DNA of 54,628 nucleotides from Microcaldota archaeon (GCA_026414185.1 JAOAJL010000007.1:1-54628); one strand, 5' to 3'. Numbered from the stretch's first letter, positions 4,564 through 47,302 are shown. Notes: generated by a model from the letters alone, not told the origin. Numbers and translations: made by a program.

Positions 4564-5625
4564 ATGATTCGGTGTCTTCCGATGGCAGGTCCGAACTTTC
4601 TTGTCTTGCCTAAAAATTCCAAAAAGACTGAAAATCCCTTGCAAGCCGTTTCTGATTTTTTCAGCCAACTTGCAGAGGAAATCAAAAACATGCCAGGTGA
4701 CCCTAAAACAACGCTGGAAAATGTCCAGAAAAGGCTTTCGGATTATGCCAAGCAGCTCAGCCAGAATCCCGAATTTAGGAAAGACCGAGAAACTCTCAAA
4801 GAAGCCCTGCGCCTTCTTTTTGTGGCGAAACACCAGTTTGGAGAAATTGCGCAAAGCAATGCTATTGACGAAAGGTTCAAGGTTACCATCGTCTGTAGAA
4901 TCCTAGTCAAACTCTCGCAAAAGGCGGAGACCCTTGCCAAAAAGTCCGAAGAGGAGGGCAAGCAGCCTGGGCTTGCAGTGCTCCAATCCAACTTCAACTT
5001 GCTTGTTGACAGCTTCGTGGAGCAGATAAAAGCCAAAGGCGGAGTAGAAAGCCCTAATTTGCGCCAGTTCGTAAGCGACTGCCTCAAAGCTTACTTCAAT
5101 GGAGTTGCAAGCGGCAAAATCACAACCAAGCGGTTCATCATGGTAGATGCAGACAACAACATGTTCTATGCATTTGATATGGAGAATCAGGAGCTTGAGT
5201 ATTGCACCTATGCCGCTCTTGGGACGGGCAGGCTAAGCTGCGTTCCAGGCAGCCGTGGAACTCCACCAGGGCTTTCCTATTTAAACGGGGAGAATCCCGG
5301 GTCAAGAGGGGGCTTCTGCCTTTCAGGCGCTGAAAGCTTCAATGAGAACAACGATGCCCGCACCATAAGGCTGCACGACCGCAACGGTCCAAAAGGCAAC
5401 TTAAACGGCACCCAAAAGACGACATGGGGCTGCATAGGAATAAGCGAGGACATACTCGGCAAAATGCTCTCTTCAGGAAGGGAAGCGGGCCAGCCTTATT
5501 ATCAGGCAGGAGTTTTCGTCTGGTCTGCCAACACCCCAGACAAATACGCAAGCGCATATGTTAATGACGATTTCTATTCAAGCGACTATGCCTCTGCCTA
5601 TCTTGGCAAAAACAAAGCGTCTTAA
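4564..5625 (+). CDS. Protein with N-terminal helical domain and C-terminal YkuD-like (L,D-transpeptidase-like) domain
   Basis: IRLHDRNG...GTQKTTWGCIGIS resembles the YkuD H...S/T-x-GC signature (Cys codon 5431-5433); no signal peptide; N-terminus resembles the 5827-6942 product. Confidence 0.6.
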   Translation: MIRCLPMAGPNFLVLPKNSKKTENPLQAVSDFFSQLAEEIKNMPGDPKTTLENVQKRLSDYAKQLSQNPEFRKDRETLKEALRLLFVAKHQFGEIAQSNAIDERFKVTIVCRILVKLSQKAETLAKKSEEEGKQPGLAVLQSNFNLLVDSFVEQIKAKGGVESPNLRQFVSDCLKAYFNGVASGKITTKRFIMVDADNNMFYAFDMENQELEYCTYAALGTGRLSCVPGSRGTPPGLSYLNGENPGSRGGFCLSGAESFNENNDARTIRLHDRNGPKGNLNGTQKTTWGCIGISEDILGKMLSSGREAGQPYYQAGVFVWSANTPDKYASAYVNDDFYSSDYASAYLGKNKAS

Positions 5626-30550: not shown

Positions 30551-32251
30551 TTACTCAAATATGTGCTCAACTATGGCGGCGTAGGCAGGGCGTGAGATGA
30601 ACAAGCCCAAAAGAGCGCCCAGTATGGTGGCAGTCGCAAACCCTATTATTTCCACAAGCCCTGATATGAGAAGAAGCGGCAGCATGGCAACCACCGCCAC
30701 GGTCACAGAGGTGGTTATTATCGCAAACGCCTTTTCCATCCTTTTTCTTGCTTCCTCGCCCTTTTTCAAAAGCTCGTCCGTGACCACTATCTGCGCATCC
30801 ACCCCGACCCCAATCGCAGCAAGCATGCCTGCCATCGCCGACAAGTCTATGGTGAAGGAGCCGAGTATCGCCATCAAGATGATGAGCTCCGCAAAGCTGA
30901 TGGAAAGCATAGGGACAATTATCTGCAGGCGCCGATAGCGCAGCGCGACCATAAGAGAAATCGCAAGGAGCGCAAAAGCAAGCCCTATGAGCGAAAGCCT
31001 CAGGAACTCAGAGCCAAGCGGTGCGGGTATGACGGTTCTGCTTCCTATCGTTATCTGGACGGGAAGCGCCCCTCCTTTGAGGATGGAGGCAAGCTCGCGC
31101 TCCTTTTTCAGCGCATCCGCAGTCCTCTCCTGCTGGGTTGCTCCGCTTGCAGGGCCGCTTATTGTATAGCCGTAATTAAGGAGCCCCTCGGTGACAGAGG
31201 GCACAAGGCGCGGGGCTGAGAGGAGCCCTACTGCCTTCCATACAGTGACCGCGTTGCTTGTCGGAAGATAAGGCGATATCTGATATGAAGGTGTCATCTC
31301 CTCCGCGCTTCTTTCCTCCACCAAAAAGCCCGCTTCCCTCAGCTTGCCGGCAAGCGCGCTTCCTTTCTTGATGATGGCTTTCGTCTTGTTGTTTTTCGGC
31401 TGGAGCGAAAAGTTCTTTTCAATCTCCTCCTCTATGTAGACGGCTATGTCGTCCCCTTCCAACCGCAGGGCAGACTCTGCCAGGGAGTAGGCAGTCGCCT
31501 TGGAAACCGGCGTTCCTGCCGACTTTGCATTTGCCAAAAGCTCCTTTTCTCCGACAATCACTATTGCATTTGAAGGCCTGTCAAGGAACATATAAAGAGG
31601 GTAGTTTGCCTTGCCCTTCGCCACCTCCGCAAACCTCTGTGCGCCGCGCTTGGTCACGCTGAACTGCACCCCCCAGTCTGCTCCGTGAAGATACTGAGGC
31701 GGGACTGCAGTTATTGAGCCGGAGTAGATATCCTCCCCTGAAATTGCAACCTTCCCATCCACTATGCCCTGATAGACTCCCTGCTGGGAAAGCAGCTTCT
31801 CAACATCTCGTATAAGCTGCGGGTCGGATGCCGGTAGCTCAACATATATCTCGCTGTCGCCTATCGGACGGACTTTCACCTCGGTCAGCCCAAATGAAGC
31901 CGCGCGCGTCTTTATGGTATTTACCATCTCTTCCATGACAACGGTGCCGACCGGCTGCTCCAAAAGCACAGGCAGCCGCACCCCTCCTGAGAAGTCTATG
32001 CCGTATTTCACTCCGTTTGACCAGATGGAAAAAGCCGAAAGTAGTACGATGGCGAACAAGCCGGCAACGCGGACGTTGTCGCTTTTCAGAAAGGAAATGG
32101 CAATTGCGACCGCAAGAAGGGAGCCTATGTAAATCGCGACGCCAGAAGGCTTCATCGCATACATCGCCGCGCAGGCAAGGAGCGTAAAGAGGAATATTGC
32201 CGCAACTTCGCGCGTGCGCGCCCCTTTCATTATTTCTGCAAGAGTTATCAT
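30551..32251 (-). CDS. secD: Protein-export membrane protein SecD
   Basis: YGIDFSGGVRLPVLLE, AMAGMLAAIGVGVDAQIVVTDELL; internal Met start. Confidence 0.92.
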   Translation of the reverse strand: MITLAEIMKGARTREVAAIFLFTLLACAAMYAMKPSGVAIYIGSLLAVAIAISFLKSDNVRVAGLFAIVLLSAFSIWSNGVKYGIDFSGGVRLPVLLEQPVGTVVMEEMVNTIKTRAASFGLTEVKVRPIGDSEIYVELPASDPQLIRDVEKLLSQQGVYQGIVDGKVAISGEDIYSGSITAVPPQYLHGADWGVQFSVTKRGAQRFAEVAKGKANYPLYMFLDRPSNAIVIVGEKELLANAKSAGTPVSKATAYSLAESALRLEGDDIAVYIEEEIEKNFSLQPKNNKTKAIIKKGSALAGKLREAGFLVEERSAEEMTPSYQISPYLPTSNAVTVWKAVGLLSAPRLVPSVTEGLLNYGYTISGPASGATQQERTADALKKERELASILKGGALPVQITIGSRTVIPAPLGSEFLRLSLIGLAFALLAISLMVALRYRRLQIIVPMLSISFAELIILMAILGSFTIDLSAMAGMLAAIGVGVDAQIVVTDELLKKGEEARKRMEKAFAIITTSVTVAVVAMLPLLLISGLVEIIGFATATILGALLGLFISRPAYAAIVEHIFE

Positions 32252-32255
32252 CGCA

Positions 32256-33422
32256 CTACCCCGAAAATATAGAGGACAGAAACGGCTTTTGCTCCTCCCC
32301 CGCCTTCCCGCCCTTTTCAAGATACCAAAGGACAATCACCGCATTCAGCATCCAGGTTGCAATAAGGTCCCCCACCAGCCCAGCCAGCGCTACAGCAGAA
32401 ATCTCATAATAGGTGTTGATGTGGGTGAGCGAAGCAAGTATGAAGAGGCAGACGAAAGAGAGCATGAGCGCAACGCTCATCGTCATCCCGGTTTTCATCG
32501 CCTCATAAGCCCTCTGCCTCGGTTCGCCTTCTCTCCTTTTTATTACGCGCATGGTCAGCAGAACGTCCGTGTCAAGGGAAAAGCCGATCAGCATCAGCAG
32601 TGCGGCAAAGGAGGCAAGGGTAAGGGGTATTCCAAACAGCCCCATCGCGCCAAGCCCCATGATGACATCGCAAGCAGCGCCAATCAGGACCGCCAAGCTT
32701 GGCACCACGCTTCTGAAAATCAGAAAAACCACTATGGAAACCAAAACAGTGGAGATTATTATGACATTCACTGCTTTTTCTATGAACTTTGCCGAGAGGG
32801 AAGCCGAAACCTCGTTGAATTGGGCGCTTTCATACCCGACTTCTGAGGAAAGGAGGGCAGTCAGCTTTTCAGAGTATTCATCAAGTATTGCCCTATAGGA
32901 ATTGCCGACCGCCTCCTTCAAAGCGTTTGTCTCAGAGTATTCAGTCGCATTTTGCGCCCTGCCCGCAATTCCAAAAAGTCCGTTGGCATAAGCGTCAGTG
33001 CTTTTCCTTGCTTCAAGATAGGCTGAAACCGCTTCGGCGCTTCCATTGCTTGCCGCAACTTCCGCCTCAAGCCGAGAAACATGCTCTATCTCCGAGAAAA
33101 AGGAGCTTTTGAGCTCCTCTGCCAAAGTGAGCTTCTCATCCCGCTCTATCTCAACCTCCACTTCGTATCCGCTTGGGTTTTGAAGCGACTTGACCGATGA
33201 AACTGCGAAGCCCGCATCTTCAAGTGCGGCTTTGAGCTTCTGCTCATCCACTCCTGCCGCAGTCTGCATAGTGACGAGGGTGCCTCCTTTGAAATCAACC
33301 CCCCTTTTTATGGCATAAGGCGAGCCGGGCAAGCCTATGAGAAGAAGCGAAGCTACCACAAGAACTAAGGGCACAACTATCAAAACCTTGTAATTTCCCG
33401 TGTAAGGGTTTGGCATTTCCAT
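32256..33422 (-). CDS. secF: Protein-export membrane protein SecF
   Basis: GVDFKGGTLVTMQT, LASFAALLMLIGFSLDTDVLLTMRV. Confidence 0.93.
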   Translation of the reverse strand: MEMPNPYTGNYKVLIVVPLVLVVASLLLIGLPGSPYAIKRGVDFKGGTLVTMQTAAGVDEQKLKAALEDAGFAVSSVKSLQNPSGYEVEVEIERDEKLTLAEELKSSFFSEIEHVSRLEAEVAASNGSAEAVSAYLEARKSTDAYANGLFGIAGRAQNATEYSETNALKEAVGNSYRAILDEYSEKLTALLSSEVGYESAQFNEVSASLSAKFIEKAVNVIIISTVLVSIVVFLIFRSVVPSLAVLIGAACDVIMGLGAMGLFGIPLTLASFAALLMLIGFSLDTDVLLTMRVIKRREGEPRQRAYEAMKTGMTMSVALMLSFVCLFILASLTHINTYYEISAVALAGLVGDLIATWMLNAVIVLWYLEKGGKAGEEQKPFLSSIFSG

Positions 33423-33510: not shown

Positions 33511-34497
33511 TCATATTATCTTCAGCAAGCCCCTCCCCACTTCCGCAAGGTCCGCCCCGAGAAGCGAGCTTCCCTGACGCATTGCGGTGAAGGTTATTAT
33601 GAGGGCAAAAAGCGGGTACAAAAGCGCCTGCATGTAAAGGACCGTTATGGTGTTCTTTATCTGCTCAAGTATGCCCGCATGCTTCTCCTCGTTCATCTTC
33701 ACCTCATAATATACCCGCATCGCAGAGCCGTAACTTGTCGCACATGGGGACTTTTCGCCTTCCTCATATGCGCTTATGCTTGTGCAGGCATGCGACGAAT
33801 TTGGCATCATTGCGACTATCAGCACGTATGTTATTGGAAAGACAAAGCCAAATGCAAGGGCAAATGCACATACAAAGCCGCCAGCCCCCCTTGTGGGCGC
33901 AAAAGAGCGGAGGATAAGTCCAATCGGCAGGAATATCTGCACCATCGTGTATTGGGAGAAGTGAAGAAGATAATACTGGACGTAGTGGAATATACCAAGA
34001 TAAACGATGGCTTTGTTTATGTAATGCGCAAGCGAAACTGGTCCAGCGAGGGCGAACGAGCCGCCCGTCCCCTCCACCCCAAAAGCATCAAAAGAAATAG
34101 AACTTGCAAGCTCAACGAAAAAATTGATTCTGAAAACAATATTGTAGATGCGATCCTCGCAGCGAATGGGACCGTTGACAATGTAGGCTTTTGCTATCTT
34201 GAATGGATCGCGCAGATGCCCTTCTGCGGCTTTTTTCAGCTCCACATTGCCGCTTGCAAGCGCCAGCTTTCCAGTAACTTCGCCCATAACCCAGTTGCCG
34301 GCAGAAACCATGCCAACCGCAAAGGCAATTATCAGGAAAGTGACGGCAACCTGCGCATACTCCGCCTTCGCCCAAAGCTCAAGCTGCTGGAGGGAAAATG
34401 CCTTTGCCGCCATCTGAACAAGAACGGTGATGAAAAGCGAAATGAGCCCGATCGTGGCGCATATCGCTTCCCACCCAAGCGGCAGATTCGCAGCCAT
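33511..34497 (-). CDS. Polytopic membrane protein, tandem paralog 6 (VirB6/TrbL-like in character)
   Basis: IFLPIGLILRSFAPTRGAGGFVCAFALAFGFVFPITYVL shared with neighbouring ORFs. Confidence 0.7.
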   Translation of the reverse strand: MAANLPLGWEAICATIGLISLFITVLVQMAAKAFSLQQLELWAKAEYAQVAVTFLIIAFAVGMVSAGNWVMGEVTGKLALASGNVELKKAAEGHLRDPFKIAKAYIVNGPIRCEDRIYNIVFRINFFVELASSISFDAFGVEGTGGSFALAGPVSLAHYINKAIVYLGIFHYVQYYLLHFSQYTMVQIFLPIGLILRSFAPTRGAGGFVCAFALAFGFVFPITYVLIVAMMPNSSHACTSISAYEEGEKSPCATSYGSAMRVYYEVKMNEEKHAGILEQIKNTITVLYMQALLYPLFALIITFTAMRQGSSLLGADLAEVGRGLLKII

Positions 34498-35565
34498 CTA
34501 TATCAGCCTCGTCAGGTTGCTCACGTCTATCTCCTCTCCCAGTATGTGGGTGAGGGAGCGGGCAATCTCTACAAGCACTATGAATGCAAGCACAGGGAGA
34601 ACCACTGCTGCGATAAAATAAAGGACAATCGGTTTTACGATGAATATGGCTGCGTTTGAAAGCCCATTGACCATCTGTTTGACGTTGCCAGTGTCTGCAA
34701 GTTGCCCTATGTTGTTTTTCAGGTCCTCCGCATTTGGCATTTTTCCGCTTTCCACCTGGCTATTGATGTCCTCTGTTTTCTGCTCAAGCTCGCCCTTTAC
34801 GTCCGTCAACTGCCCGCTTATTATGTAGTCCTGAAGCACTATGGATAAAGGGTAGAAAAACAGGAAAGTTATGGAAATGCCAATCAGCGTCCCCCCAAAT
34901 CCCCTTGACGGCTCAAACGCCCTGAAAAACAGCCCAAAAGGAAGTATGTAAGTCAAGGTCGCATACCCCATGTACTCAACCATCTTCATCTGAAGCCCAA
35001 TTAGCAGGTATGATGTTATGAAGCCGGAAACCATGTAAAACACAATCGTGTTAAGCTGACCAACAGACTCCAGGGGGTTGTCTTCCATTCCCAGTCCGAT
35101 GGGGTTGGAGATATAAGTGGTCCTCTGAAGAAGCCCGACAATTTTCGCAAAATGCATCAGGTAGCCAAACAATATCGCTCCCGTCGCCTGAAGCCCTCCA
35201 AAATAATCCTCAACAATTTCAAACATATTCTTGTCTGCGTACTTCGGCGGTTGGGAGGGCAAGTCAAGAAAACCAAGCTTGAATGCGCATGCGCCAAAAA
35301 TAAAGAAGGCAATAACCGCAAACAAGCCTGCTGTTGCAAATATCTGGAAAAGCTCAAACTTGCACCATGTAAGGAATGCTTGGTTGCGTAGGAAATTGGC
35401 AAACATGAAAAGCAGGACAAGCGAAATCAGAGAAACAAGGAGGGCAAGAAGGCAAAGCTCAAACCACCCGCTGCCAAGCACTCCAAACGAATATGGAAAT
35501 ACGTGCGGGTCGTGCGCAACTATCTTTTCGCATATTTTTTGGGCAAGCAACATAACATTCCTCAT
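34498..35565 (-). CDS. Polytopic membrane protein, tandem paralog 5
   Basis: YILPFGLFFRAFEPSRGFGGTLIGISITFLFFYPLSIVL; C-terminal LGEEIDVSNLTRLI. Confidence 0.7.
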   Translation of the reverse strand: MRNVMLLAQKICEKIVAHDPHVFPYSFGVLGSGWFELCLLALLVSLISLVLLFMFANFLRNQAFLTWCKFELFQIFATAGLFAVIAFFIFGACAFKLGFLDLPSQPPKYADKNMFEIVEDYFGGLQATGAILFGYLMHFAKIVGLLQRTTYISNPIGLGMEDNPLESVGQLNTIVFYMVSGFITSYLLIGLQMKMVEYMGYATLTYILPFGLFFRAFEPSRGFGGTLIGISITFLFFYPLSIVLQDYIISGQLTDVKGELEQKTEDINSQVESGKMPNAEDLKNNIGQLADTGNVKQMVNGLSNAAIFIVKPIVLYFIAAVVLPVLAFIVLVEIARSLTHILGEEIDVSNLTRLI

Positions 35566-36932
35566 ATTATCTTTTCAAGCGCGGATAGGTCAATCTCAGT
35601 GCCAAGCGCCTTGGCAACTTCCTTCGCCAAGGTTATTGTTATGAATATTATGAAAATAGGTATGACCAGGCTGACTATGAAAAGAAAGAAAATCACCTCG
35701 TATATTCCATACAGTAAAAGCGTCAATATTGGGGGCAGAAGAAAAGCAGCAAGCCAGCTTATATTGAATTTTTGAAGTATCTTATTCAATGCCACTGTGC
35801 CTATCGCCACACCTGCAACACCACCAAACGCACCCATGCCGCTGAGTTTTTCAAACACTCCGCCGACCGCCTTTGAGAGCACAGTATTATATATGCAAAA
35901 AACTCCGCTTCCAACAACGGGTAGTTGGCCATCAATAGAAATCACAATGTCGCCTTGTAGAACCTTCTCCTGCGAAAGGCGGTAGGGCTTGCTTGCAGGC
36001 CACGGGTCATAGCCTCTCTTGCCATTAGCGATGAAAGGCTCGTTTTCGTCCTCTGGCTGGGGGTTAATTCCAACACAGCACATCGGCTTGTCCCCAACGC
36101 AAGTCGCCCAGATATGAGGCGGATTTGCAATCGCAAGTTCGTTTTCAAAATAGTTAGTTATCATCTCGCCAAACTGGACCATCATGAACGGATAGACAAA
36201 ATAAAGCGATATGGCAAGACCGATTAGGGCGTTTGCGCCTGCCTTTGCCTGAGGTCCAAAAGCCCGAAGGAATATGCCAAGAGGCAAAAACAGCGGAAGC
36301 ATGGTGTTTTTGATAAAGCAGAGCAAAAATTCGTGTGCAAACCACTCGGCAACAGCCGCGGCTATAAGTTGCATTATCGCCCCAAGCCCGTCAAATATAG
36401 GTCTGAACATAGGGGCAATTTGAAAACTCGTAGCAAAAGCCTTAAAGCCAGCTAGCTTTATATTAGGTTTTTGGTGCGCCACAAACGAAATAATCATGTT
36501 TGAGAAAACCATAAGGGCAAAATCAAAAACAACAGTGTTTCTTATTAGAGTTGAATAAGCGCGGGCGGTGTCTATGTTTTTTACGCCAAAGTCCTCAAGC
36601 CCAGCAAACGACAAAGTCAGCACAGAGAGTATCGCTGCCGTTTCAGCCACGCCCCACAGTGTTCCGCGTAGCCACTCATTCAGCTTTGCGCTTCCGAACA
36701 AACCGCTTACTATGTAGCCTACTGATACTATCAATATGCTTAGAATCAGCGCAATCCAAGCAAGCGGCATCCAGCTATTCGGCGTGCCGCCGACGCACTC
36801 CACGGGCGCTGAAGAGCCAAACATGGTTCCGATGTCGGCAAAGTCAAACGAATTGAGCATGCCGGCAATCATTATGAGGAATATCAAAAATGCGGCAACA
36901 TATGGCATTCTTGAACGGCGTTTTTCCATCAT
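35562..36932 (-). CDS. Polytopic membrane protein, tandem paralog 4
   Basis: LFLPLGIFLRAFGPQAKAGANALIGLAISLYFVYPFMMV; C-terminal LGTEIDLSALEKII. Confidence 0.7.
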   Translation of the reverse strand: MMEKRRSRMPYVAAFLIFLIMIAGMLNSFDFADIGTMFGSSAPVECVGGTPNSWMPLAWIALILSILIVSVGYIVSGLFGSAKLNEWLRGTLWGVAETAAILSVLTLSFAGLEDFGVKNIDTARAYSTLIRNTVVFDFALMVFSNMIISFVAHQKPNIKLAGFKAFATSFQIAPMFRPIFDGLGAIMQLIAAAVAEWFAHEFLLCFIKNTMLPLFLPLGIFLRAFGPQAKAGANALIGLAISLYFVYPFMMVQFGEMITNYFENELAIANPPHIWATCVGDKPMCCVGINPQPEDENEPFIANGKRGYDPWPASKPYRLSQEKVLQGDIVISIDGQLPVVGSGVFCIYNTVLSKAVGGVFEKLSGMGAFGGVAGVAIGTVALNKILQKFNISWLAAFLLPPILTLLLYGIYEVIFFLFIVSLVIPIFIIFITITLAKEVAKALGTEIDLSALEKII

Positions 36933-38191
36933 ATCAGCCTTGAAAGTATGGATATTTCAACGTCTCCGCCTATTAGCGGCGAGAGATACTTAAAAGCGGC
37001 GAGCATCGCCATCAAGCCAAGAAAAGGGATAACTATAGAGAAGACCATCAATGCCCCAAGCGAACCGAGAGTTCCATCTGGGGAAAATTTAGGAAGGATA
37101 TTTCCCTTGAGCCAATTGGTTTTTATCATCTGCAGAAGTTGGCTTTCAAGTTTGTTCATAGTTCTCTTTTGGGCTTCAATGTTTTCCTGGCTTGCCGAGC
37201 CGCAAATATCCATTATGCTTACTTTTGTTTTGCTCATCTCATTCTGGCTCATCGTATTTGGATTGAGGTCGCCCGCAATTCCAGGAATAAATGAGTTTTC
37301 CATATCAACATCCGTTCCAAATTTTGGAGAAGAATTCTGGTCGCTTCCCCTTACAAATCCAAATAAGATGGCGTTTCCAAGGGCATAAAACATAGGCAAG
37401 ACGATATAGGCGCACAGCCCGAGAGCTATAAGAAGCCCGCCAAGCTTTCTTGTGAAGTAAAAAATGCGCAGGACAAGCCCCATGGAAAGCATAAGAGGCA
37501 AAAAGGCAACATGCAGATATTCAAGCATAAGCTGCTGTATTCTGGCAAACATCATCATTTTCACTGTAAGGTCAAAAATCACGTTGTAATACTCGCTGAT
37601 AATAGACAAGCCTGCAAGTGGGCGTATGGAGATGCCGGCAAGCTCAACTATCGCTTTAGCTGATAAGCCGATGGATATATTGTCTGCTAATGCATAAAGA
37701 GAATTAAAGGTGAGAGCGGTTATCGCATTTGTTCTTCCACTCTCATAAAGCATCTGCAAATAGTCCATAGCAAGAGCGATGTGACAGGGCTTTCCGGCTT
37801 GAATGGCGGTCCTGGGCAAGCAAGTGGAAACTGCTGGGTCGCAGCAGATGATACTGTTAACGTAGCTTCGCCAAGCAGGAGAGCCTGCGGTTGCCAACAC
37901 TCTCAGCCAGCCATCCATACTTGCCATTAGCACAAGCACAACCAGCATTATCAGAGCCGAATAGAAAAGCTGACCAACCTCCTTTTTCACCCACGCTTTC
38001 ATGCTCTCGTCGCCAAGGAAACTGAAAGCCATCCACCCCAATGCAAGAAGAAGTGAAACTATTGCCATTGCAAGAAGCGGCATGCCAAGCCATCCCATAA
38101 CAGGTTTTATCTCCTTTCCAGTAGACGATGTGCAGCCTGCCAAAAGAAGCAGGCATATGAAAAGCAACCCAACCGCCATTCCTCTGCGCAT
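36929..38191 (-). CDS. Polytopic membrane protein with lipobox-like N-terminus, tandem paralog 3
   Basis: LLLAGC near the N-terminus; LSMGLVLRIFYFTRKLGGLLIALGLCAYIVLPMFYAL; C-terminal IGGDVEISILSRLI. Confidence 0.7.
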   Translation of the reverse strand: MRRGMAVGLLFICLLLLAGCTSSTGKEIKPVMGWLGMPLLAMAIVSLLLALGWMAFSFLGDESMKAWVKKEVGQLFYSALIMLVVLVLMASMDGWLRVLATAGSPAWRSYVNSIICCDPAVSTCLPRTAIQAGKPCHIALAMDYLQMLYESGRTNAITALTFNSLYALADNISIGLSAKAIVELAGISIRPLAGLSIISEYYNVIFDLTVKMMMFARIQQLMLEYLHVAFLPLMLSMGLVLRIFYFTRKLGGLLIALGLCAYIVLPMFYALGNAILFGFVRGSDQNSSPKFGTDVDMENSFIPGIAGDLNPNTMSQNEMSKTKVSIMDICGSASQENIEAQKRTMNKLESQLLQMIKTNWLKGNILPKFSPDGTLGSLGALMVFSIVIPFLGLMAMLAAFKYLSPLIGGDVEISILSRLI

Positions 38192-38194
38192 ATT

Positions 38195-39100
38195 TTAACC
38201 CATCTTCTGGCTGATAAATTTCACAGTGCCCTTGATAAATGCAATCGTAAGCGTTATGGATAAGGCAGGCAAGAAAAGTGCCTGCAAAAGAATATACGGC
38301 ATAACTTCAAGAGGGCGGAAAAGCAAACCGTCAATGTCAAACATGCCACCCTGGCTTACCGCCCACTGCGAAAAAGCCGCATATCTGTTTTGATCCAGTG
38401 TTCCAAGCGGGCTTTTGAAATCAGCCTTTTTCAGCATCATCCCAACAATTTCAGAGTGCATAACGTAGGTATAAGGATAAACAAGCTGAAAGCCGAGGGC
38501 AGAGGCGATAAGAAAAGTGCCCGCATCCCTCGTTGGCGGGAAAATCCTCAATATTGCCCCTGCGGGAAGCACAAAAGGCAATGCAATGGCTTTTATTACC
38601 TCAATTATCACCTGCTGAACCATAAGGCTGGCGGTAAAAGGAGTCATAAGCGCAAGAAGGAAATCCGCCACCCGCTCAATAACTACAAAAGAAGGGAAGG
38701 CAGGCACCAACACTCCCCACACTGATAGCCCCCATCTCATGCTTATAGAGCCCATATACTGAGAATATATTTTCAGAACCTCCATTGACATTATCGCCAC
38801 AAGAGCAAGGTTGTTTGAAATATAGCTTAGATAGCTCCTCGCAATTGCAAACGGATCTGAGCCTGCCAACACTTCAGTTACCTGAGCCGCAAAGCAGGAA
38901 AAACCGAATATGCTAACCATAAGAAAAGCCGAAACTCCAAGCTGGTAAAGCTCAATTGAAACAAACGACTCATATTCCGGCTTTCTGAAAAAAGCTGCCG
39001 CCATGTAAGCTAAACCAAGCAGAGTGGCAAGCAGGGCAATAGAGACTGCTGCAATTGACAATGCAGTCATTGCTATGAAATCCGGAGTGCAAAGAGGCAT
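38195..39100 (-). CDS. Polytopic membrane protein, tandem paralog 2
   Basis: FVLPAGAILRIFPPTRDAGTFLIASALGFQLVYPYTYVM. Confidence 0.7.
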   Translation of the reverse strand: MPLCTPDFIAMTALSIAAVSIALLATLLGLAYMAAAFFRKPEYESFVSIELYQLGVSAFLMVSIFGFSCFAAQVTEVLAGSDPFAIARSYLSYISNNLALVAIMSMEVLKIYSQYMGSISMRWGLSVWGVLVPAFPSFVVIERVADFLLALMTPFTASLMVQQVIIEVIKAIALPFVLPAGAILRIFPPTRDAGTFLIASALGFQLVYPYTYVMHSEIVGMMLKKADFKSPLGTLDQNRYAAFSQWAVSQGGMFDIDGLLFRPLEVMPYILLQALFLPALSITLTIAFIKGTVKFISQKMG

Positions 39101-39121
39101 CTTTCAACCACCTATCTTCTT

Positions 39122-40609
39122 TCATACTAATTTTGTAATTCCCAGCAGTCTTGGCTCCCCCCCTATCAGAATTGAAAAGTCTTTCAGCAGCGTCAAAGTT
39201 ACAACTATGCTGTTTATTATGAACAGAAACATCAAGGCAAGAAGCTTGCCAGTTTCTGCAGTCGCATGTTCAAACTGTCTAAACGCAAACCGCGGTCCAG
39301 CGCTTACAATGGCACCTGTCGCATCCTTCATTCGCTGTATGAAGACGTTCTGCGTGCCCCTATCATACTGCTCCTCGTTCAATTTTCCAATCCTGTCTTT
39401 TTCTTCCATATCCCGCTTCAGCCTAACCTGCGTTTTTGTGGAAGGGTCATTTTGTGCCAGCTTCTCATTTTTCAATTTGGAGATATACTCCTCCTCTTTC
39501 TTCCCCTCTTCCGACAGGATAGTTTCAAGCCTACTTGAAAGCGCAGGATTGTCAATCGCTTCCTCGCAGAGCAAGAAAGACGAGGTCGCGTCAAGGAAAT
39601 CAGATACTGCTGGCTGGCATTTGTCTTCGTAGCAGGAATTCGTGCAACACTCCTGGTCGGTCTGGCAGCTTTCCCCCACTTTTTTATAGGCAGGGTCGCT
39701 GCACAAGGGGGGAGAATCCACCATATTCCACATATGCCAATTAAGCAGAATGGTAAGTGGAAATATGAAATAGGCTGCGAAAGCAACTGCCACGATTGTC
39801 GAGCCGGTCTTTCTTGTGAATGGAAAAACGCGCATCAATATCCCAAGTGGAAGAAAGTAGTTCAAGGCAGTCAGATCAATAAAGTTCAAAAGTATCTTCT
39901 GTGCGGCAGCCCCGCCTATTAGCGTTCCAAGCAAATCCACAATTACAGTGTTTGCCTCATTGATAAACGAAAAAAAGATCGGAAGAATAATGTTGTGTAT
40001 CTCAAATTCAACTTGGGGAACACCCCATATCATCACATTTATCTCAATGCTGAGTGTTCCTAAAAATCCACTCAGTATTTCAAATATCATCAAGCGCAGA
40101 TACCTTCCTACAAGCGCCGGCAGCAATACACCGTTGTTATCGCTTAGGGCATATGGAACGCCTACCGCTATGATATCCCAGAAACTCCATCTACATCCAA
40201 TAAAATAATCCGCCTGCCCTATCGCGAAGTTTCCTTTCTCATAGTAATAGCCGTTAATAGGGTCACCCCTCAATTCTCCGTGAAATTTAGTCCACTCCGG
40301 ACAGCTTTTTGGCATCCCGGCTGTTTTGGGGACAAGCCCATGCCCCACTTTATCAAATATGCCATTTGGTATTGTAAGAAGGATGCAGATAATCACTATA
40401 ATCGCACTTACCGCCAACTCACGCAACTCAAGCTTTGAAAATGCCTTAAGGGATGGCATAGAGAAAATTTCACTCATCATATAAGAAAGAGCGGTTATGA
40501 AAGCAGCTATCCCAAATGCCGCGATTATGGCTGGATTTTGGAAGAAGTTCTGCGCTCCATAAAGGATGAAATCCATCATTGCCAAGCCACCATCAGTTTC
40601 CTGCTTCAT
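39122..40609 (-). CDS. Polytopic membrane protein with Cys-rich insert, tandem paralog 1
   Basis: YFLPLGILMRVFPFTRKTGSTIVAVAFAAYFIFPLTILL; CQTDQECCTNSCYEDKC module; start placed at MKQETDGG. Confidence 0.7.
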   Translation of the reverse strand: MKQETDGGLAMMDFILYGAQNFFQNPAIIAAFGIAAFITALSYMMSEIFSMPSLKAFSKLELRELAVSAIIVIICILLTIPNGIFDKVGHGLVPKTAGMPKSCPEWTKFHGELRGDPINGYYYEKGNFAIGQADYFIGCRWSFWDIIAVGVPYALSDNNGVLLPALVGRYLRLMIFEILSGFLGTLSIEINVMIWGVPQVEFEIHNIILPIFFSFINEANTVIVDLLGTLIGGAAAQKILLNFIDLTALNYFLPLGILMRVFPFTRKTGSTIVAVAFAAYFIFPLTILLNWHMWNMVDSPPLCSDPAYKKVGESCQTDQECCTNSCYEDKCQPAVSDFLDATSSFLLCEEAIDNPALSSRLETILSEEGKKEEEYISKLKNEKLAQNDPSTKTQVRLKRDMEEKDRIGKLNEEQYDRGTQNVFIQRMKDATGAIVSAGPRFAFRQFEHATAETGKLLALMFLFIINSIVVTLTLLKDFSILIGGEPRLLGITKLV

Positions 40610-40644
40610 TACACAGCATAAACTTATAAGTCTGTCAAGCAAAA

Positions 40645-43600
40645 ATGGCTTTTGGTGAGTGTTTGGACTGGCGCAGGGCAGGGCTTGCATTGGCATTTGC
40701 CTTGCTAATGGTGTGCCAGCCCTTATTTTGCGATTATATATACAGCGACCTTCCCTACAAGACGCTGCTTTCTGCGAATGTCCGCTTCAATGAATTCACT
40801 GTTAAGCTGATTTATATTAACGTTTCTTACTACCAGAAGCCGGAGACCCAAAAAGTCCCGCGGTTTCCAAGCGTATATGGTGACAATTCGCAGGATGATT
40901 TTTCAGCAGCAGGTTTTCCGGTAGAGAATGGAGAAATATACTTCAAGTTTAACGGCCAGCGGGTATCTGAAAATGGCGGCGAAGAAGGGTGCTATCCAGC
41001 AAAGACGAATAGCAGCGGTATGGCAAGGTGCAAAATAAATTTTGTATGGGATTCATCAGAAGGAAAGTTTGTAAGCATAGACAAAATTAAAGATTGCGGC
41101 AACGTGGAAATAGAGTTTAAAGGCGGCTCTATCGGAGAACTTGACCTCAAACCTTCAAGCATGTCGCTTATTTTCTGCCCAAAGGAAAGCGAGGCGATTT
41201 CAGCATTCGGATCTGCAATTTATTCCGCCTTGACAAACAGACCGGCGGCTGCCTTCTTCTGTTTTACTGCGATGCTGATAAGCGGAATCCTTGTCGCCGC
41301 GATGTATTATTCAGGAAGGGACCCGCTATCCCTTTTTGACCTTACCACCCCGCGCCTTCCGAGAACAAAGCAAGGCAGAGTTTCTGGAGGCAAAGCTTCG
41401 TTTGCGGTAAGGACTGCGGCAGCAAGATATGCACAGATGAAAAAACAAGTAGAAAAACAGTATAAAAAACTGTTAGTAAAAACTGCGAAAAAGAACAAGA
41501 GGGACGTCGGAGCTGCAAAAAAGGAGTTAAAGGCGCTGCTCAAAGAGCTCAAGAGTCTGCGGGGGAAGGCAACCGATGAGGACATAAGAAGATTCCAAGA
41601 AAAGCTAAAGGCGCTTTTTGTAAAATACGGCCTCAATCCACAGAACAAGTATTACCGCGATGCTCTTTATTATGCATCTTCTCTTGTGAACATATACCTA
41701 TTTGCTGATATAGCATCGGGGGCGATGTCTGCTGCGCGCAGCGCAGAGGCGGGGGGAAGGCTTACACGGTTCATAGACGCAAAGTTGAAAAATCTCAGCG
41801 ATAGGCTTGCGGCAAACGACCAAAAATTGCAAAATATCAAAGGGGTCAAGCTCCTACTCCATGTTCCACTAATATTCGCAGTGCCAAAAATATCAAAGAA
41901 GATTCTGGATTCAGTCATGCTTAGACGAGCTGGCAAGAAGTGGATAAAATCAACTGCAAAGCTAACCATAGGGCAGGCGATATTCATCGCTGGAATAAAG
42001 AAAGAGGCACGGAAGGGAAAAGTCGCCATAACAGAAAATAGCTTCAGATGGTGGTTCAAAGGGGTGCGCCGGCTTTTTGACAAAGCCCCGTTTGAGTCTG
42101 AAGAAAGAAAGCTTACTTTGCTTGGGAAATGGTTCAAGTGGTATTACGGATGGGATTTCAAGAAATTCGTCCAAAAGCACGATATTTGGAGAAAAAAGCT
42201 TGATGAATACCGGGATGAAGTCAAAAGAGCAAGAGTACTAATAAGCGAATACCAAAACTCGCTGAAATTGCTTCTTGTAAAAGAGCTGCTTGATGAGCTT
42301 GTGCGCGAAGAGAGGGCAGAACGGTATCTTAAAGAAATATTGAAGAAGCTGGCGAAAAACAAGCAGCTGGATGAAAAAGAGATAAGAGACCTTGAAAAAT
42401 CTCTCACCGGTATATTCAAGCAAATCCGGGATTCTGCCTTAGCAAAAGCAGACAACCCAGCCGAAGCCGCAAGTCTGATGAGAAGTCTTGCAGACAAGTA
42501 TTTCCATGAACACAGGGCTCCTGAGGAAATAAGAAGGGAATTTGAAAAAATCATCAACCGAAATATCGCCCTTTTGAATGCGATTGGCCAGCATGGCGGA
42601 AAAGATGCGGCTGCTCTTCTAACAGAGCTTCTCAAAGCAGACGAGCGCCTTCGCGGCATGAACGTGGCTTCCCAGCTTCAAGAGATAAAGAAGTTACAAG
42701 ACGAACTAAACAGGGTTTACGGAATTTCAGTGCTGCTGCACGATGCCTTTTTGAGCGACCCGAAAAACTACGGAAAGGCAAAGGCAATCGAGCTTTCGCA
42801 CATAGAAGCCATCGTGGATTTTGAAGCAAGGCAGATGCTCCAAAAGATGAATGAAGCAGGCGATAAGAATGTCAAGAAGCTCATGCAAGGCGGCTTCCTC
42901 ACCAGAGAACTGATTGAAAGATACCTGGCGGAGCATAGAGAAGCGTACGAGTCCCTTGCCAAGACTGTCAACCAGAAGCTTCGCTCCATGGGCGGCATCC
43001 TGGAAGATTTTGTTGATAAAAAGATGGCAGAGGGCGATAAAACATTTTTCCTCAGGCTTGGTCTTGGCTATGCTTTTGACTCACAGGGGAAAAAATATGC
43101 AGTTGACAGTGTAAGAGAGTTTGAGTCCCACTTCATAAAAGAAGTGCGCAACCGGGTAATTAGAGAATTCTCCAAGCATGACACATTTGACAAGAGCTAC
43201 AATCCGAACGCCGACCTTGTAAGCCTCCTGAATCAAAAAATAGCGGAGCTGAGGTTACAAATAAACAGGCAGCTGGGTATGGATGAGCCGTCAATCCTGC
43301 CAGGCACAGATCCTGGCGGATCATTCCAATGCCGTCTTATAAACCGCATAGTTGGCATCCTGAATGATCCTGAGCTTAAAAAATTCATGAAAGAAAACGG
43401 CTTGGATTCCATAAAGGACATAAACGAGCTGGAGATGCTTTTCCGAGCAGGAGTAAAAGCGCCCGATTTCATCAGAGAAATTACAAAAGCCCTATTGAAA
43501 GCAAACAAAGCGCAACTTGAGCAAATTGCAGAGCTGTTGGCGACCAGCGAAGCTTCAAGGAACATGTTTCTCAAAAGCATGGAAACCGCAATCAGCAACA

Positions 43601-46600
43601 GAATCGCGGTGCTGGAGAGGCTCTCAAGCTTAGATTATGAGGACATCAAAGCCATTTGCAAGAGGCTCAATATCCAATTTTCCAGAGAGCTTTATGAGTC
43701 CAATCGGGCTGCATTGCATGAGCAGATAGTAGAGCGGCTTCCTCTGCTGAGGGACGAGGCTTTCTTTGGGAAGAGGGCGCTGGGCTTCATCTCCAGAAAA
43801 ACAGGGCTTGAGCCGGAAACCCTATGTCGTTCCTCACTAAGCGAAATAGTCCTGGTTTCCATTCTGGAAAAAAGCTTTGTCCAAACTACGAGATGGGCTG
43901 CTGAGGTATTAAAAATCAACTCAATGATCAACTACCGCTACGAAGGGCCCGCTTACTGGAAAATGTCGCTGGAGGAAATTGTCGGTCAATTGAGAGAAAA
44001 AGGCAAGATGCAACAGCAGATTGAGTGGGCAGCCCTCAGAAACCAGTTCCTTGCAAACCAATACGAAGGTAGCAGAGGCTATCATATAGAAACTCTTCTT
44101 TTTACAACGCGATGGATGAATCGCCTCGCAGAACAAGCCCTTGTCTATAGCCAAGGCAACGCGCCATGGGGCGGAACGATCCTTGCGAACTTCAATTCAG
44201 TTATGGACCACAACCGCTTCAGCTATCTTGCCAAGAAAGCCGTTTTCAGGAATTTGATTGACCATGAAAGCACACTTTTCCAGGACGCAGACTATGCGAT
44301 GAAGCTTGCCGCCCTGAAGGGCTGGACGAAAGAAGAAATAGAGGCAATACAGAAAAAGGACGCGAAGGCACTAGAACGTTTAAAGTCTATTGAATATGAT
44401 GCAGATGCATACGACCTTCTCATGAAACGCGGCTTGCAGATGCGGGATGTGCAGCAAGGGCTGGCGTACTGGATATCAAGCGACAAGATGGGGACTGTTC
44501 CGATAATCGAGTTTGACAAAGGAGAGCTTGAAAGGCAGGGGAAAGGGATAATTCTGCTTGCTGACAAAAAGGGGGACCATCTGAAAGAAGACATAAGGGA
44601 CTACAATCCTCTCCTTGCGCGGTTTAACATGTCCGATTACGCAAGCGTCGTAAACGGGCTTGTTCCAGTAAGGATTGTCTCTAAAGAAGGCGAGCCGCTG
44701 AAAATAAGGCGAGTGGACCCGCTGAAATTTCATGAAGTAGAAAGGTTTTATACAATAGGCGAGAGCAACATAAACAAAAGAAACGAGATTGCAAACATAA
44801 TCGCCGCCACAGGCTCGCTCAAATTCATGCACGTGACTGACTACCAAGTAAACTATGCGCCTCGCAGGCAGAGGATTGTCACATCAGTAGGTTCTGCGAT
44901 TGGCGGATTTGTCTTCGCAGTCTTCTATGACCACATAAAGCGCTTTAATGAGTGGTATGTGGCAGCCAACCGCTACCGCGACATGCTCTATGACCTTGAA
45001 AGGCAGATGAGCGGGATGAGGACTGCCGGAATAAAAAGATGGGACGCAAATGAAGCGCTCAGGCAATACGGGGCTGTTTTGGAAAGCGAGATGGAAGCGC
45101 TTGATAAGAAGAACCCAAGAAGCGGCGCCAGCCGCGCTGAAATACTGCGGGACCTAATAGTCAATCTCCAGAATACCGACAAGTCAAATTTCCTGAAAAG
45201 AAGCTATCTTGCCTACACGTATTCAGCCCACGCGATGGTTGAAAATGCAGTCCGTGAGGCAGAATTGGAAAAGAAAGCCCTCAAAATAATGCTTGATAAG
45301 GGCATAATAAGCAGAGATGAATACAGCCAGCTTCTCAATAGCAACGCCTGGAAGACCAGGCTTGATACTGTTTCTTCTGAGCTTCGGAGCTACGGGCTAG
45401 AGACAAGAAGCCTGGAGCGAGCTCTCAAAAGCGACTCCATTTCCGCATCCACAGCAATCTCAGCCCTGAAAGACTGCAATAGAGACGTTTCAAAAGAAAC
45501 AAGCACGTTCACAAAAGCGCTGATAGAAATGGGCGGTTCTGGGCAGATGACCAGAAGCATTTTCTCAACATGGAATCCCTCAACCACTTACAGATACACA
45601 GAAGGAATGCTTGCGAAGTCCCACTCCGCAATTGAGGCAAGCTGCATGCGCGATACTCGGACCGCTCTTGGGCAGAAGATAGGGCTTGAATACGCCTTCT
45701 ATATGGGATTTGATACCGGCCAGGGTATGTATGAAAACCCACGGACATACGCATCTTCGTTGTGGGAATACGAGCTTATTCCATACCTCCAATTTGTCGG
45801 GTGGGCACACAAGTTCTTCCTTCCGATTGCAAGCACATTTTACAGAGGTCAGGCAGGCATGTCTTCCTACTTTTTCAAGACCGAGCTTGAGCCAGGCTCG
45901 GCTGGCAAAGTCACAACTGACCTGTCTCTTCTCTTGCGCATAAAGAAAGGCGTGTCTGATTTTGCTTCCTCAACATGGCAAAATATCTCAAACTACGCAG
46001 GGGTTACGAATGTGGTGGGTGCCCTCCAGACCGGCGGCAGGATAAAATTTGACGAGCTTGGCAGGTCATATATAGACAAAGCGTGGTATTCAAACTTGGT
46101 CAAGCATTACGCTGTGCCGAGCGAATGGTACAGCACTTATGCCGCCATCCAGCGCCAAGCCAGTTTACAAGACAAAATAGCCGCCTCGGACATATTCAAA
46201 AAGAATGAAATAATCGTTGATGGCGAAGGGAAGAACGTCTATATGGGAGAGGATGGGAAGATTTACTATGGCAAAAAAGAAAAGGAAGAAGCCGAAAGAG
46301 CAGGGGTGAGCTTCGCAAATGAAGGCCAGCCGCTCAGAACGCATGACCTTGCAGAAGCGTGGGTTAAAACATTCAACGAATATATGTTCTCCTACGGGTC
46401 AAAAAAAGACGAGCTACGCGAGCAGCTTCGCGAATATGAAAACCTAATGAAGCCATATATGTATTCTCTTGTTGATTTTCGGGCAGAGGGGGCAAGGCGC
46501 GGAACCTCCGGCAAATACTTCATGGAAGACGGCTCGCGGTATCGTTTCATGAACCTTTATCTACCCAACTACATGAATGCCTGGATGGAAACTATATCGG

Positions 46601-47265
46601 TTCCAGGCGCCTTTGAGCTAAATCCGCTTGCCGGCGGAAAGGAGCTTGGGCCAAGAATCGCCGCAGACATCTCCCGCGCAGAAAAAGATTCGCGCCTTGG
46701 GCGCATGCAGGATGAGTTTGTTTTAAGATGGAATGAGGCGCTGCAAGACTTTATTGTCATAAACAACTCAACGATACATCAAGATGCAGTGCGGGACCAC
46801 TATTATTACCGCACTCCTGCCCTCCTTCACACCATAAAATACCAAAGCTATCTTGTTCGTTACGAATGGCTTGACCCGTGGCTTAGCCAATTGCCCGGTT
46901 ACAAATTCCTGCACCACAAGTTCTTTGAAGCCCGCAGAAGGCCGGAGCTTACGGACGAAGAAAACAGAAGGATGCGCACTGCGATGGCAACCTACCTGCC
47001 AACCTGGAGGGATGAGGAGATTTCCCAAAACATAGCGCTCAGAGAGGCAAATTACAATCCTGTTTTCCGTTCATATGAAAGCAGGGCGACATTTGCCCTT
47101 CAGCGGTTCTTCTACAAGCGAATAGACTCGTATATACACCGCTGCAGGCTGATACAGCGAAGCTACGGGCTGCCTGATGAATTGAGGGCGCGCTCCTCCA
47201 TGGCAATGTTAAACATGGAAGAGATGTTCCGGCTCACTTTACTGCTTGACAGTTCAATTTACTAA
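40645..47265 (+). CDS. Giant 2206-aa protein: signal peptide, about 170-aa ectodomain, one clear TM, very long charged helical region
   Basis: Single uninterrupted ORF; LALAFALLMVCQPLFC near the N-terminus; AAAFFCFTAMLISGILVAAMYYSG TM; K/E/R-rich beyond. Confidence 0.85.
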   Translation: MAFGECLDWRRAGLALAFALLMVCQPLFCDYIYSDLPYKTLLSANVRFNEFTVKLIYINVSYYQKPETQKVPRFPSVYGDNSQDDFSAAGFPVENGEIYFKFNGQRVSENGGEEGCYPAKTNSSGMARCKINFVWDSSEGKFVSIDKIKDCGNVEIEFKGGSIGELDLKPSSMSLIFCPKESEAISAFGSAIYSALTNRPAAAFFCFTAMLISGILVAAMYYSGRDPLSLFDLTTPRLPRTKQGRVSGGKASFAVRTAAARYAQMKKQVEKQYKKLLVKTAKKNKRDVGAAKKELKALLKELKSLRGKATDEDIRRFQEKLKALFVKYGLNPQNKYYRDALYYASSLVNIYLFADIASGAMSAARSAEAGGRLTRFIDAKLKNLSDRLAANDQKLQNIKGVKLLLHVPLIFAVPKISKKILDSVMLRRAGKKWIKSTAKLTIGQAIFIAGIKKEARKGKVAITENSFRWWFKGVRRLFDKAPFESEERKLTLLGKWFKWYYGWDFKKFVQKHDIWRKKLDEYRDEVKRARVLISEYQNSLKLLLVKELLDELVREERAERYLKEILKKLAKNKQLDEKEIRDLEKSLTGIFKQIRDSALAKADNPAEAASLMRSLADKYFHEHRAPEEIRREFEKIINRNIALLNAIGQHGGKDAAALLTELLKADERLRGMNVASQLQEIKKLQDELNRVYGISVLLHDAFLSDPKNYGKAKAIELSHIEAIVDFEARQMLQKMNEAGDKNVKKLMQGGFLTRELIERYLAEHREAYESLAKTVNQKLRSMGGILEDFVDKKMAEGDKTFFLRLGLGYAFDSQGKKYAVDSVREFESHFIKEVRNRVIREFSKHDTFDKSYNPNADLVSLLNQKIAELRLQINRQLGMDEPSILPGTDPGGSFQCRLINRIVGILNDPELKKFMKENGLDSIKDINELEMLFRAGVKAPDFIREITKALLKANKAQLEQIAELLATSEASRNMFLKSMETAISNRIAVLERLSSLDYEDIKAICKRLNIQFSRELYESNRAALHEQIVERLPLLRDEAFFGKRALGFISRKTGLEPETLCRSSLSEIVLVSILEKSFVQTTRWAAEVLKINSMINYRYEGPAYWKMSLEEIVGQLREKGKMQQQIEWAALRNQFLANQYEGSRGYHIETLLFTTRWMNRLAEQALVYSQGNAPWGGTILANFNSVMDHNRFSYLAKKAVFRNLIDHESTLFQDADYAMKLAALKGWTKEEIEAIQKKDAKALERLKSIEYDADAYDLLMKRGLQMRDVQQGLAYWISSDKMGTVPIIEFDKGELERQGKGIILLADKKGDHLKEDIRDYNPLLARFNMSDYASVVNGLVPVRIVSKEGEPLKIRRVDPLKFHEVERFYTIGESNINKRNEIANIIAATGSLKFMHVTDYQVNYAPRRQRIVTSVGSAIGGFVFAVFYDHIKRFNEWYVAANRYRDMLYDLERQMSGMRTAGIKRWDANEALRQYGAVLESEMEALDKKNPRSGASRAEILRDLIVNLQNTDKSNFLKRSYLAYTYSAHAMVENAVREAELEKKALKIMLDKGIISRDEYSQLLNSNAWKTRLDTVSSELRSYGLETRSLERALKSDSISASTAISALKDCNRDVSKETSTFTKALIEMGGSGQMTRSIFSTWNPSTTYRYTEGMLAKSHSAIEASCMRDTRTALGQKIGLEYAFYMGFDTGQGMYENPRTYASSLWEYELIPYLQFVGWAHKFFLPIASTFYRGQAGMSSYFFKTELEPGSAGKVTTDLSLLLRIKKGVSDFASSTWQNISNYAGVTNVVGALQTGGRIKFDELGRSYIDKAWYSNLVKHYAVPSEWYSTYAAIQRQASLQDKIAASDIFKKNEIIVDGEGKNVYMGEDGKIYYGKKEKEEAERAGVSFANEGQPLRTHDLAEAWVKTFNEYMFSYGSKKDELREQLREYENLMKPYMYSLVDFRAEGARRGTSGKYFMEDGSRYRFMNLYLPNYMNAWMETISVPGAFELNPLAGGKELGPRIAADISRAEKDSRLGRMQDEFVLRWNEALQDFIVINNSTIHQDAVRDHYYYRTPALLHTIKYQSYLVRYEWLDPWLSQLPGYKFLHHKFFEARRRPELTDEENRRMRTAMATYLPTWRDEEISQNIALREANYNPVFRSYESRATFALQRFFYKRIDSYIHRCRLIQRSYGLPDELRARSSMAMLNMEEMFRLTLLLDSSIY

Positions 47266-47302
47266 CCTTATGATTAAAAAACGCATCTGGAAAGTGATTG
47301 TC

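Follow-up and report, generated by a model that had tools for sequence, protein, structure and literature searches.

What do six related membrane proteins, encoded side by side in an archaeal genome, build together, and are they interchangeable copies of one subunit or separate parts of one complex? This question is raised by a stretch of 54,628 nucleotides (nt) from Microcaldota archaeon (GCA_026414185.1, JAOAJL010000007.1:1-54628), hereafter the window, which is an entire contig (C32) of a 961-kb genome distributed over 35 contigs. Reading of its open reading frames (ORFs) gave six consecutive homologous membrane-protein genes on the minus strand at 33511-40579, here named p1 to p6 in the order of transcription, from p1 (39122-40579) through p2, p3, p4 and p5 to p6 (33511-34497). 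We consider it probable that Micrarchaeota possess a translocation machine of the Ced/Ted type, similar to type IV secretion, and that the six are its polytopic VirB6/CedA-like membrane subunits. No description of the six-gene set was found in the open-access literature on secretion and pili of Micrarchaeota.

Six paralogs of one family

A sequence-only reading of the window had proposed six tandem paralogs with a common motif and, in several of them, a common C-terminus. All six motif strings quoted in it were found, in six consecutive minus-strand ORFs. In a genome-wide search, the 328-amino-acid (aa) p6 matched the other five window paralogs with E-values of 2.6e-8, 1.9e-7, 4.3e-6, 1.0e-4 and 1.5e-4, and a seventh copy on contig C6 of the same genome with 1.8e-5; E-values derived from our scripts vary with the chosen search space. 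A profile search, which had been proposed as a check, was carried out with a family profile built from five of the six paralogs and iterated over 42 genomic regions, including that of the window. It gathered 139 family members in relatives, and no scores fell between ~1e-31 and 0.003. The genome-wide E-values and this gap clearly place the similarity beyond generic transmembrane composition.

Among 109 members, the residues G, R, R, G and P of the motif LPxGxxLRxFxPTRxxG...P are at least 90% invariant. The C-terminal tail is also a family feature (consensus lLGge.di.gL.rLI); within the window, it is missing in p2, the most compact of the six, and degenerate in p6 and p1. Scans of the six window proteins against Pfam and NCBIfam gave no meaningful match, and the best hit of the family profile in a sequence search of PDB had an E-value of 0.14.

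Copy number and order are conserved across the phylum

Each of ~60 complete clusters, drawn from many Candidatus Micrarchaeota families, had exactly six members (counted by hand, with clusters cut at contig ends excluded). The genomes compared were mostly metagenome-assembled genomes (MAGs); those with exactly six included the single-contig genomes G123 and G190. Two kinds of cluster, type 1 and type 2, were distinguished, and six members were found in 13 of 13 type-1 clusters fetched as well as in complete type-2 clusters. The number recurred in distant families (G087 and G089 of f13; G123, G258, G246, G263, G222, G254 and G207 of f20/f21), and 13 further genomes of 7 families added 18 complete clusters of six and one cluster (G051 C1) that was detected in part. 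In the window genome itself, part of a second cluster lies at the edge of contig C6, and C11 carries a further, separate member. In family f25, four genomes (G278-G281) carry one family member instead of six (E ~1e-57 in G279), which is a natural reduction. It was also observed that in type-2 clusters (L032, L034, L038, L042, L048 and L070) p3 is enlarged to 700-1350 aa, as are p4, p5 or p2 in some of them.

Order is conserved as well as number. Position-specific hidden Markov models (HMMs) assigned p1 to p6 in order in ~12 loci outside their training set. In a tree of both cluster types, type-1 and type-2 members formed sister clades at five positions (support 0.90 for p1, 0.91 for p2, 0.99 for p3, 0.97 for p5 and 0.999 for p6), the p4 group being broken only by a clade of solo members that nests beside p4. 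A phylum-wide tree recovered monophyly of p2 (0.93), p3 (0.91), p5 (0.95) and p6 (0.999), with p1 and p4 unresolved. Since positions are monophyletic across type 1 and type 2, divergence of the six preceded duplication of the whole block. Tandem duplication and divergence are confirmed, and the clusters, position HMMs and trees show that a set of six in fixed order, whose conservation in relatives had been the point to check, is maintained phylum-wide.

The family was matched in 265 of 303 Micrarchaeota genomes, and a single query sufficed in 56 of the 59 genomes of nearest relatives. A scan of 85,488 species found contigs of which the named ones were almost all labelled Candidatus Micrarchaeota; it used one p5-specific pattern, which distant homologs in other phyla could escape.

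Pilins and a VirB4-like ATPase share the operon in other families

The partners of the six are best seen outside the window. An operon of the form pilin, six members, c2, c2, ATPase was found in G087, G089, G258, G246, G263, G222, G254 and G207. In f13 and f20/f21 it comprises one or two pilin-like genes, then the six, a pair of c2 genes, the c0 ATPase of ~505 aa and c1; in f20/f21, pilin and p1 are separated by an unassigned gene of ~243 aa. G123 has the six followed by c2, c2, ATPase and c1, and a pilin-like gene was not seen in the stretch examined. In G023, type-2 p1 to p6, a lipoprotein, a giant protein, c2, c0 and c1 all lie on one strand. In the order of Micrarchaeota to which the window belongs, a solo member often stands directly before c2-c0-c1 (~9 genomes).

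The c0 protein is a HerA/VirB4/CedB-like ATPase (DUF87 4e-17, AAA_10 1e-14). Among NCBIfam models, CedB (up to 3.6e-30) and CedD were the closest and VirB4 subfamilies scored 1e-10 to 2e-15, all below curated cut-offs; among solved structures, HerA and VirB4 (4ag5) were matched at 1e-16. In other families, then, family members stand beside a VirB4-like gene, as VirB6 does. Type IV pilus or type II secretion (type IV filament, TFF) was rejected because the linked ATPase is of HerA/VirB4/CedB rather than GspE/FlaI type; no family member matched the TadC/PilC family. The c2 protein, present in two copies in many operons, has two N-terminal transmembrane segments and a soluble domain. From these features and its gene position, c2 may be VirB3/VirB4-N-like.

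The pilins combine a signal peptide and two hydrophobic segments with the motif GVIYAAGQxMGAETRARANVWAT, and approach the Pfam models T4SS_pilin (2.8e-5) and TrbC/VirB2 (1e-4) just below their cut-offs. Such VirB2-like pilins occurred in 59 of 59 genomes searched, including that of the window, and the phylum has many paralogs, often in tandem. The window genome has three pilin genes away from the six-gene cluster (C29:73369-73653, C29:33253-33441 and C11:26679-26948) and two motor modules, c2-c0-c1 on C29 (L058) and c0-c1 on C11 (L059). Gene fusions join pilin domains to family members: one VirB2-like pilin domain precedes p1 in G053 (C56:76107-77774; L122; 8.5e-21), and two precede p2 in G050 (L040 13355-15025; 8e-22).

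Predicted fold and likely relationship to VirB6

AlphaFold2 (AF2) models of p5 (predicted local distance difference test score 89.6, predicted template modelling score 0.84) and p2 (89.5 for the former measure) were compared, and the two have one topology: an N-terminal helical hairpin, a third helix, a small beta hairpin, a long helix, the motif turn, a second long helix and a C-terminal helix. In these models, LPxGxxLRxFxPTRxxGG sits at the turn joining the two long helices. In Foldseek searches the stalk of R388 VirB6 was the most probable natural match in PDB for both models (0.85 and 0.69); in the second listing, only a designed helix bundle (0.72) scored higher. Besides, the pilin profile aligned in register with the N-terminal hairpin of the family (E 0.002, best 4.8e-4 for type-2 p1; controls 0.18-0.8). 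A relation between pilin and VirB6 has already been published for CedA1 and CedA (PMC9905601).

On this evidence, VirB6 homology of the six is likely, and we regard assignment of the putative machine to the Ced/Ted-like class of type IV secretion as well supported. Several observations weigh against this interpretation. The fold match taken alone is not significant (Foldseek E ~0.25 for VirB6; template modelling scores 0.30-0.43). The Pfam TrbL/VirB6 model (PF04610) was matched by 0 of 109 members, and the TrbL profile gave no match to a family member in any of 59 genomes, its sole hit lying in G030, on a contig that likely represents Patescibacteria contamination. NCBIfam models gave only weak matches to one member (CedE, 2.5e-4) and one solo protein (CedA, 0.0052), both close to the noise level of these scans (0.0019 to an unrelated family). 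The c2 profile found only coiled-coil noise in PDB, which leaves c2 without a recognised relative. In the window, neither pilin nor ATPase adjoins the six, both lying on other contigs. Finally, known VirB6/DotA platforms are pentamers (PMC12857230), and six genes need not give a six-membered ring.

As an observation apart, the contig in G030 (C121; L050) carries a cluster of TrbL/VirB6, a 252-aa gene and a VirB4-like gene, with a large repeat-rich surface protein; its presence in a Micrarchaeota MAG is probably due to contamination from Patescibacteria.

One platform or several

Could the six simply be unrelated multi-transmembrane proteins with a common short motif? Pairwise identity between positions is only ~20%, as this would predict; however, the explanation is refuted by the genome-wide E-values, by the 139-member profile with an empty gap below it, by the same AF2 topology in two paralogs and by the orthology of positions, and we give it practically no credence. 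An envelope complex with no transport role, such as an S-layer anchor or a membrane scaffold lying near secDF by chance, would agree with the neighbours seen in the genus of the window, which are secD and secF, a giant single-transmembrane protein and a lipoprotein, with no motor gene adjacent. Yet other families have the same six in an operon with pilin and a VirB4/CedB-like ATPase, pilin fusions exist and the secDF link is confined to the genus, which makes such a complex very improbable. Closer to our interpretation is the view that the machine is T4SS-like (T4SS, type IV secretion system) and that the six are a lineage-specific family which arose from a VirB2-like pilin hairpin and replaced VirB6. 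The pilin-like N-terminal hairpin, the pilin fusions and the lack of a significant TrbL, CedA or VirB6 match would all be expected, but VirB6 is the natural protein preferred by the fold search with either model, and a membrane protein next to VirB3/VirB4-like genes is the gene order of VirB6. We regard this origin as unlikely, and VirB6 is itself suspected kin of VirB2 (PMC9905601), hence the two are hard to separate.

It is a real possibility, if not a probable one, that the proteins are VirB6/CedA-like and yet assemble separately, as six homo-oligomers, or into mixed rings rather than one fixed hetero-oligomer, for instance as alternative platforms that serve different pilins or cargos. The many, often tandem pilin paralogs of the phylum are consistent with this, as is the solo member that stands beside the ATPase with none of the other five at its locus; in Rickettsiales, too, which retain 4-5 VirB6 paralogs in tandem, a hetero-ring is not proven (PMC7648143). 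On the other hand, one would expect alternative platforms to come in varying numbers, whereas six, in order, is invariant over ~60 clusters and is retained by blocks of both type 1 and type 2. That six positions persisted for the age of the phylum and were duplicated together speaks for a hetero-oligomer in which each subunit has a fixed place. The best reading is that a usually homo-oligomeric VirB6/CedA platform has turned into six non-interchangeable paralogs, which are probably subunits of the membrane channel of the translocation machine. The idea of a hetero-oligomeric ring or channel, already present in the sequence-only reading, fits the evidence best and now acquires a putative identity, a VirB6/CedA-like platform of a type IV secretion-like machine; for its stoichiometry we infer a hetero-hexamer.

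We propose that the two N-terminal helices would serve as a pilin-like hairpin anchoring each subunit, and that LPxGxxLRxFxPTRxxGG would form, close to the membrane face, the tight and positively charged turn that connects the two long helices. The six may assemble into one non-symmetric platform or pore with a fixed order of subunits, most simply one copy of each, placed above the hexameric VirB4-like motor. Such a platform could nucleate a pilus, let DNA or protein cargo pass through the envelope of these host-dependent archaea, or both. In the order that includes the window, duplication of the block would have given two specialised versions, both accompanied by a giant single-transmembrane protein and a secreted Cys-rich lipoprotein, and the motor operon would have been relocated (to contigs C29 and C11 in the window genome).

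A bolder and rather doubtful extension is that Micrarchaeota share an ancestral T4SS-like machine with a membrane platform that is an obligate hetero-hexamer, its six VirB6-like paralogs holding fixed positions and matching the six-fold motor underneath. The machine would be the conduit through which these parasites contact their hosts, and might be related to a barrel of Microcaldus variisymbioticus ARM-1, a cultured member of the phylum. Cryo-tomography of the ARM-1 envelope has revealed a 21-nm barrel of no assigned identity (PMC11329633); a link between it and the six-gene machine is speculation.

The cluster and its neighbours in the window

Features of the window are listed in Table 1. 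The six genes look like an operon because the gaps between them are 22, 4, -3, -3 and 1 nt. The p1 ORF is open up to 40696 (39122-40696), and a start at 40579 or 40609 is likelier than one at 40696; 40579 is the likely start and 40609, chosen in the sequence-only reading, a possible one. The N-terminus of p3 is lipoprotein-like (LLLLAGC). A Cys-rich insert is present in p1 (CQTDQECCTNSCYEDKC), and knottin-like inserts with weak matches to small disulfide-rich folds were noted in p1 proteins (window 39122-40579; L008 3-1376); these are probably merely compact extracellular disulfide modules.

Table 1. Features of the six-gene cluster and its surroundings in the window. HMM scores are for the protein's own position versus the next.
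Feature	Coordinates	Strand	Length (aa)	Remarks
p1, paralog 1 of six	39122..40579	-		motif LPLGILMRVFPFTR; t1p1 HMM 513 vs 105 bits (next type)
p2, paralog 2	38195..39100	-	301	HMM 401 vs 100 bits; AF2 model mde73226ea121
p3, paralog 3	36929..38191	-	420	HMM 458 vs 129 bits
p4, paralog 4	35562..36932	-	456	HMM 534 vs 85 bits
p5, paralog 5	34498..35565	-	355	HMM 450 vs 109 bits; AF2 model m52765d740ffb
p6, paralog 6	33511..34497	-	328	HMM 432 vs 140 bits
Short divergent intergenic region, p1 to giant gene	40580..40644			A/T-rich TATA-like stretch AAACTTATAAG
Giant protein, divergent	40645..47265	+	2206	family of 27, beside both cluster types
Secreted Cys-rich lipoprotein-like protein	47246..49498	+	750	SLT (transglycosylase) hit at E 0.0077, weak and below cut-off
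secF-like gene	32256..33422	-		89 nt downstream of p6; SecD_SecF_C 2.7e-26
secD-like gene	30551..32335	-		SecD_SecF_C 6.5e-9

The region between p1 and the giant gene is inferred from its composition to act as a promoter. The giant protein consists of a signal sequence and ecto-domain, one transmembrane segment ending in conserved SGRDPLSLFDLTTPRLPR and a very long helical cytoplasmic part. Its single-transmembrane family, of 1000-2200 aa with SGRDPLSLFDLTTPRLPR conserved after the membrane segment, had no Pfam match. The lipoprotein-like protein is related to lipoproteins beside type-2 clusters (E 1.7e-11), and a PDB search returned no solved relative; in an archaeon, it could be a VirB1-like envelope enzyme. 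The secF-like gene also adjoins p6 in L031, L045 and L047 and is a genus-level neighbour; a Sec/YidC accessory role for the six was rejected because the secDF neighbourhood is limited to the genus. Elsewhere in the window (4564-5625), a protein has a C-terminal half (HDRNGPKGNLNGTQKTTWGCIGIS) that, judged by eye, is similar to the catalytic motifs of L,D-transpeptidases; Pfam gave nothing significant.

Comparison with known systems

These proteins, which lack a Pfam match, point to a candidate translocation machine for host-dependent archaea that is almost phylum-wide. They also appear to be a rare case in which a VirB6-like platform, at first made of one repeated subunit, came to consist of six fixed, non-interchangeable ones and was then duplicated as a block; comparable one-to-six paralog cases are MCM2-7 and Rpt1-6. 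With genes and partners named and co-culture proteomes published (PMC11329633), the connection between Micrarchaeota and their hosts is now directly testable.

The closest parallels are the Ced system of Sulfolobales (CedA/CedE, CedA1, CedB/CedD) and the Ted system of Thermoproteales, which likewise combine a polytopic VirB6-like protein, a VirB2-like pilin and a HerA/VirB4-like ATPase; CedB and CedD are the best NCBIfam names for the Micrarchaeota ATPase. Ced can have two VirB6-like paralogs, CedA and CedE, the latter in one genus (PMC11868833). Unlike Ced and Ted, Micrarchaeota have six obligatory, block-duplicated VirB6-like positions, add a separate two-transmembrane c2 (often in two copies) and giant single-transmembrane and lipoprotein partners, and, as host-dependent archaea, retain the set in nearly the whole phylum (265 of 303 genomes). 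R388 TrwI/VirB6 and Legionella DotA have an N-terminal helical hairpin, as predicted for our family, and the R388 VirB6 stalk is by probability the best natural PDB match of both AF2 models. They differ in being homopentamers made from a single gene, as described for the VirB6 protein of R388 and Dot/Icm (PMC12857230), and the similarity in fold is not statistically significant. The T4SS of Patescibacteria (VirB6-PrgI/VirB3-VirB4, T4SS_pilin) has the same gene logic and also belongs to ultrasmall episymbionts (PMC12102498); in contrast, it has one VirB6 gene, with no sequence match to the Micrarchaeota family.

The rvh/virB system of Rickettsiales resembles the six in another respect, as these obligate symbionts have tandem VirB6 paralogs, some hugely extended, in an operon with virB3-virB4 (PMC7648143), and the enlarged type-2 members (700-1350 aa) recall those extended VirB6 proteins. 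Unlike the Micrarchaeota six, the Rickettsiales proteins are bacterial and present in 4-5 copies, and their extensions differ; the tandem likeness is probably convergent. Viewed alongside the T4SS of Patescibacteria, this analogy suggests that obligate symbionts in several lineages may have elaborated the same part of the T4SS.

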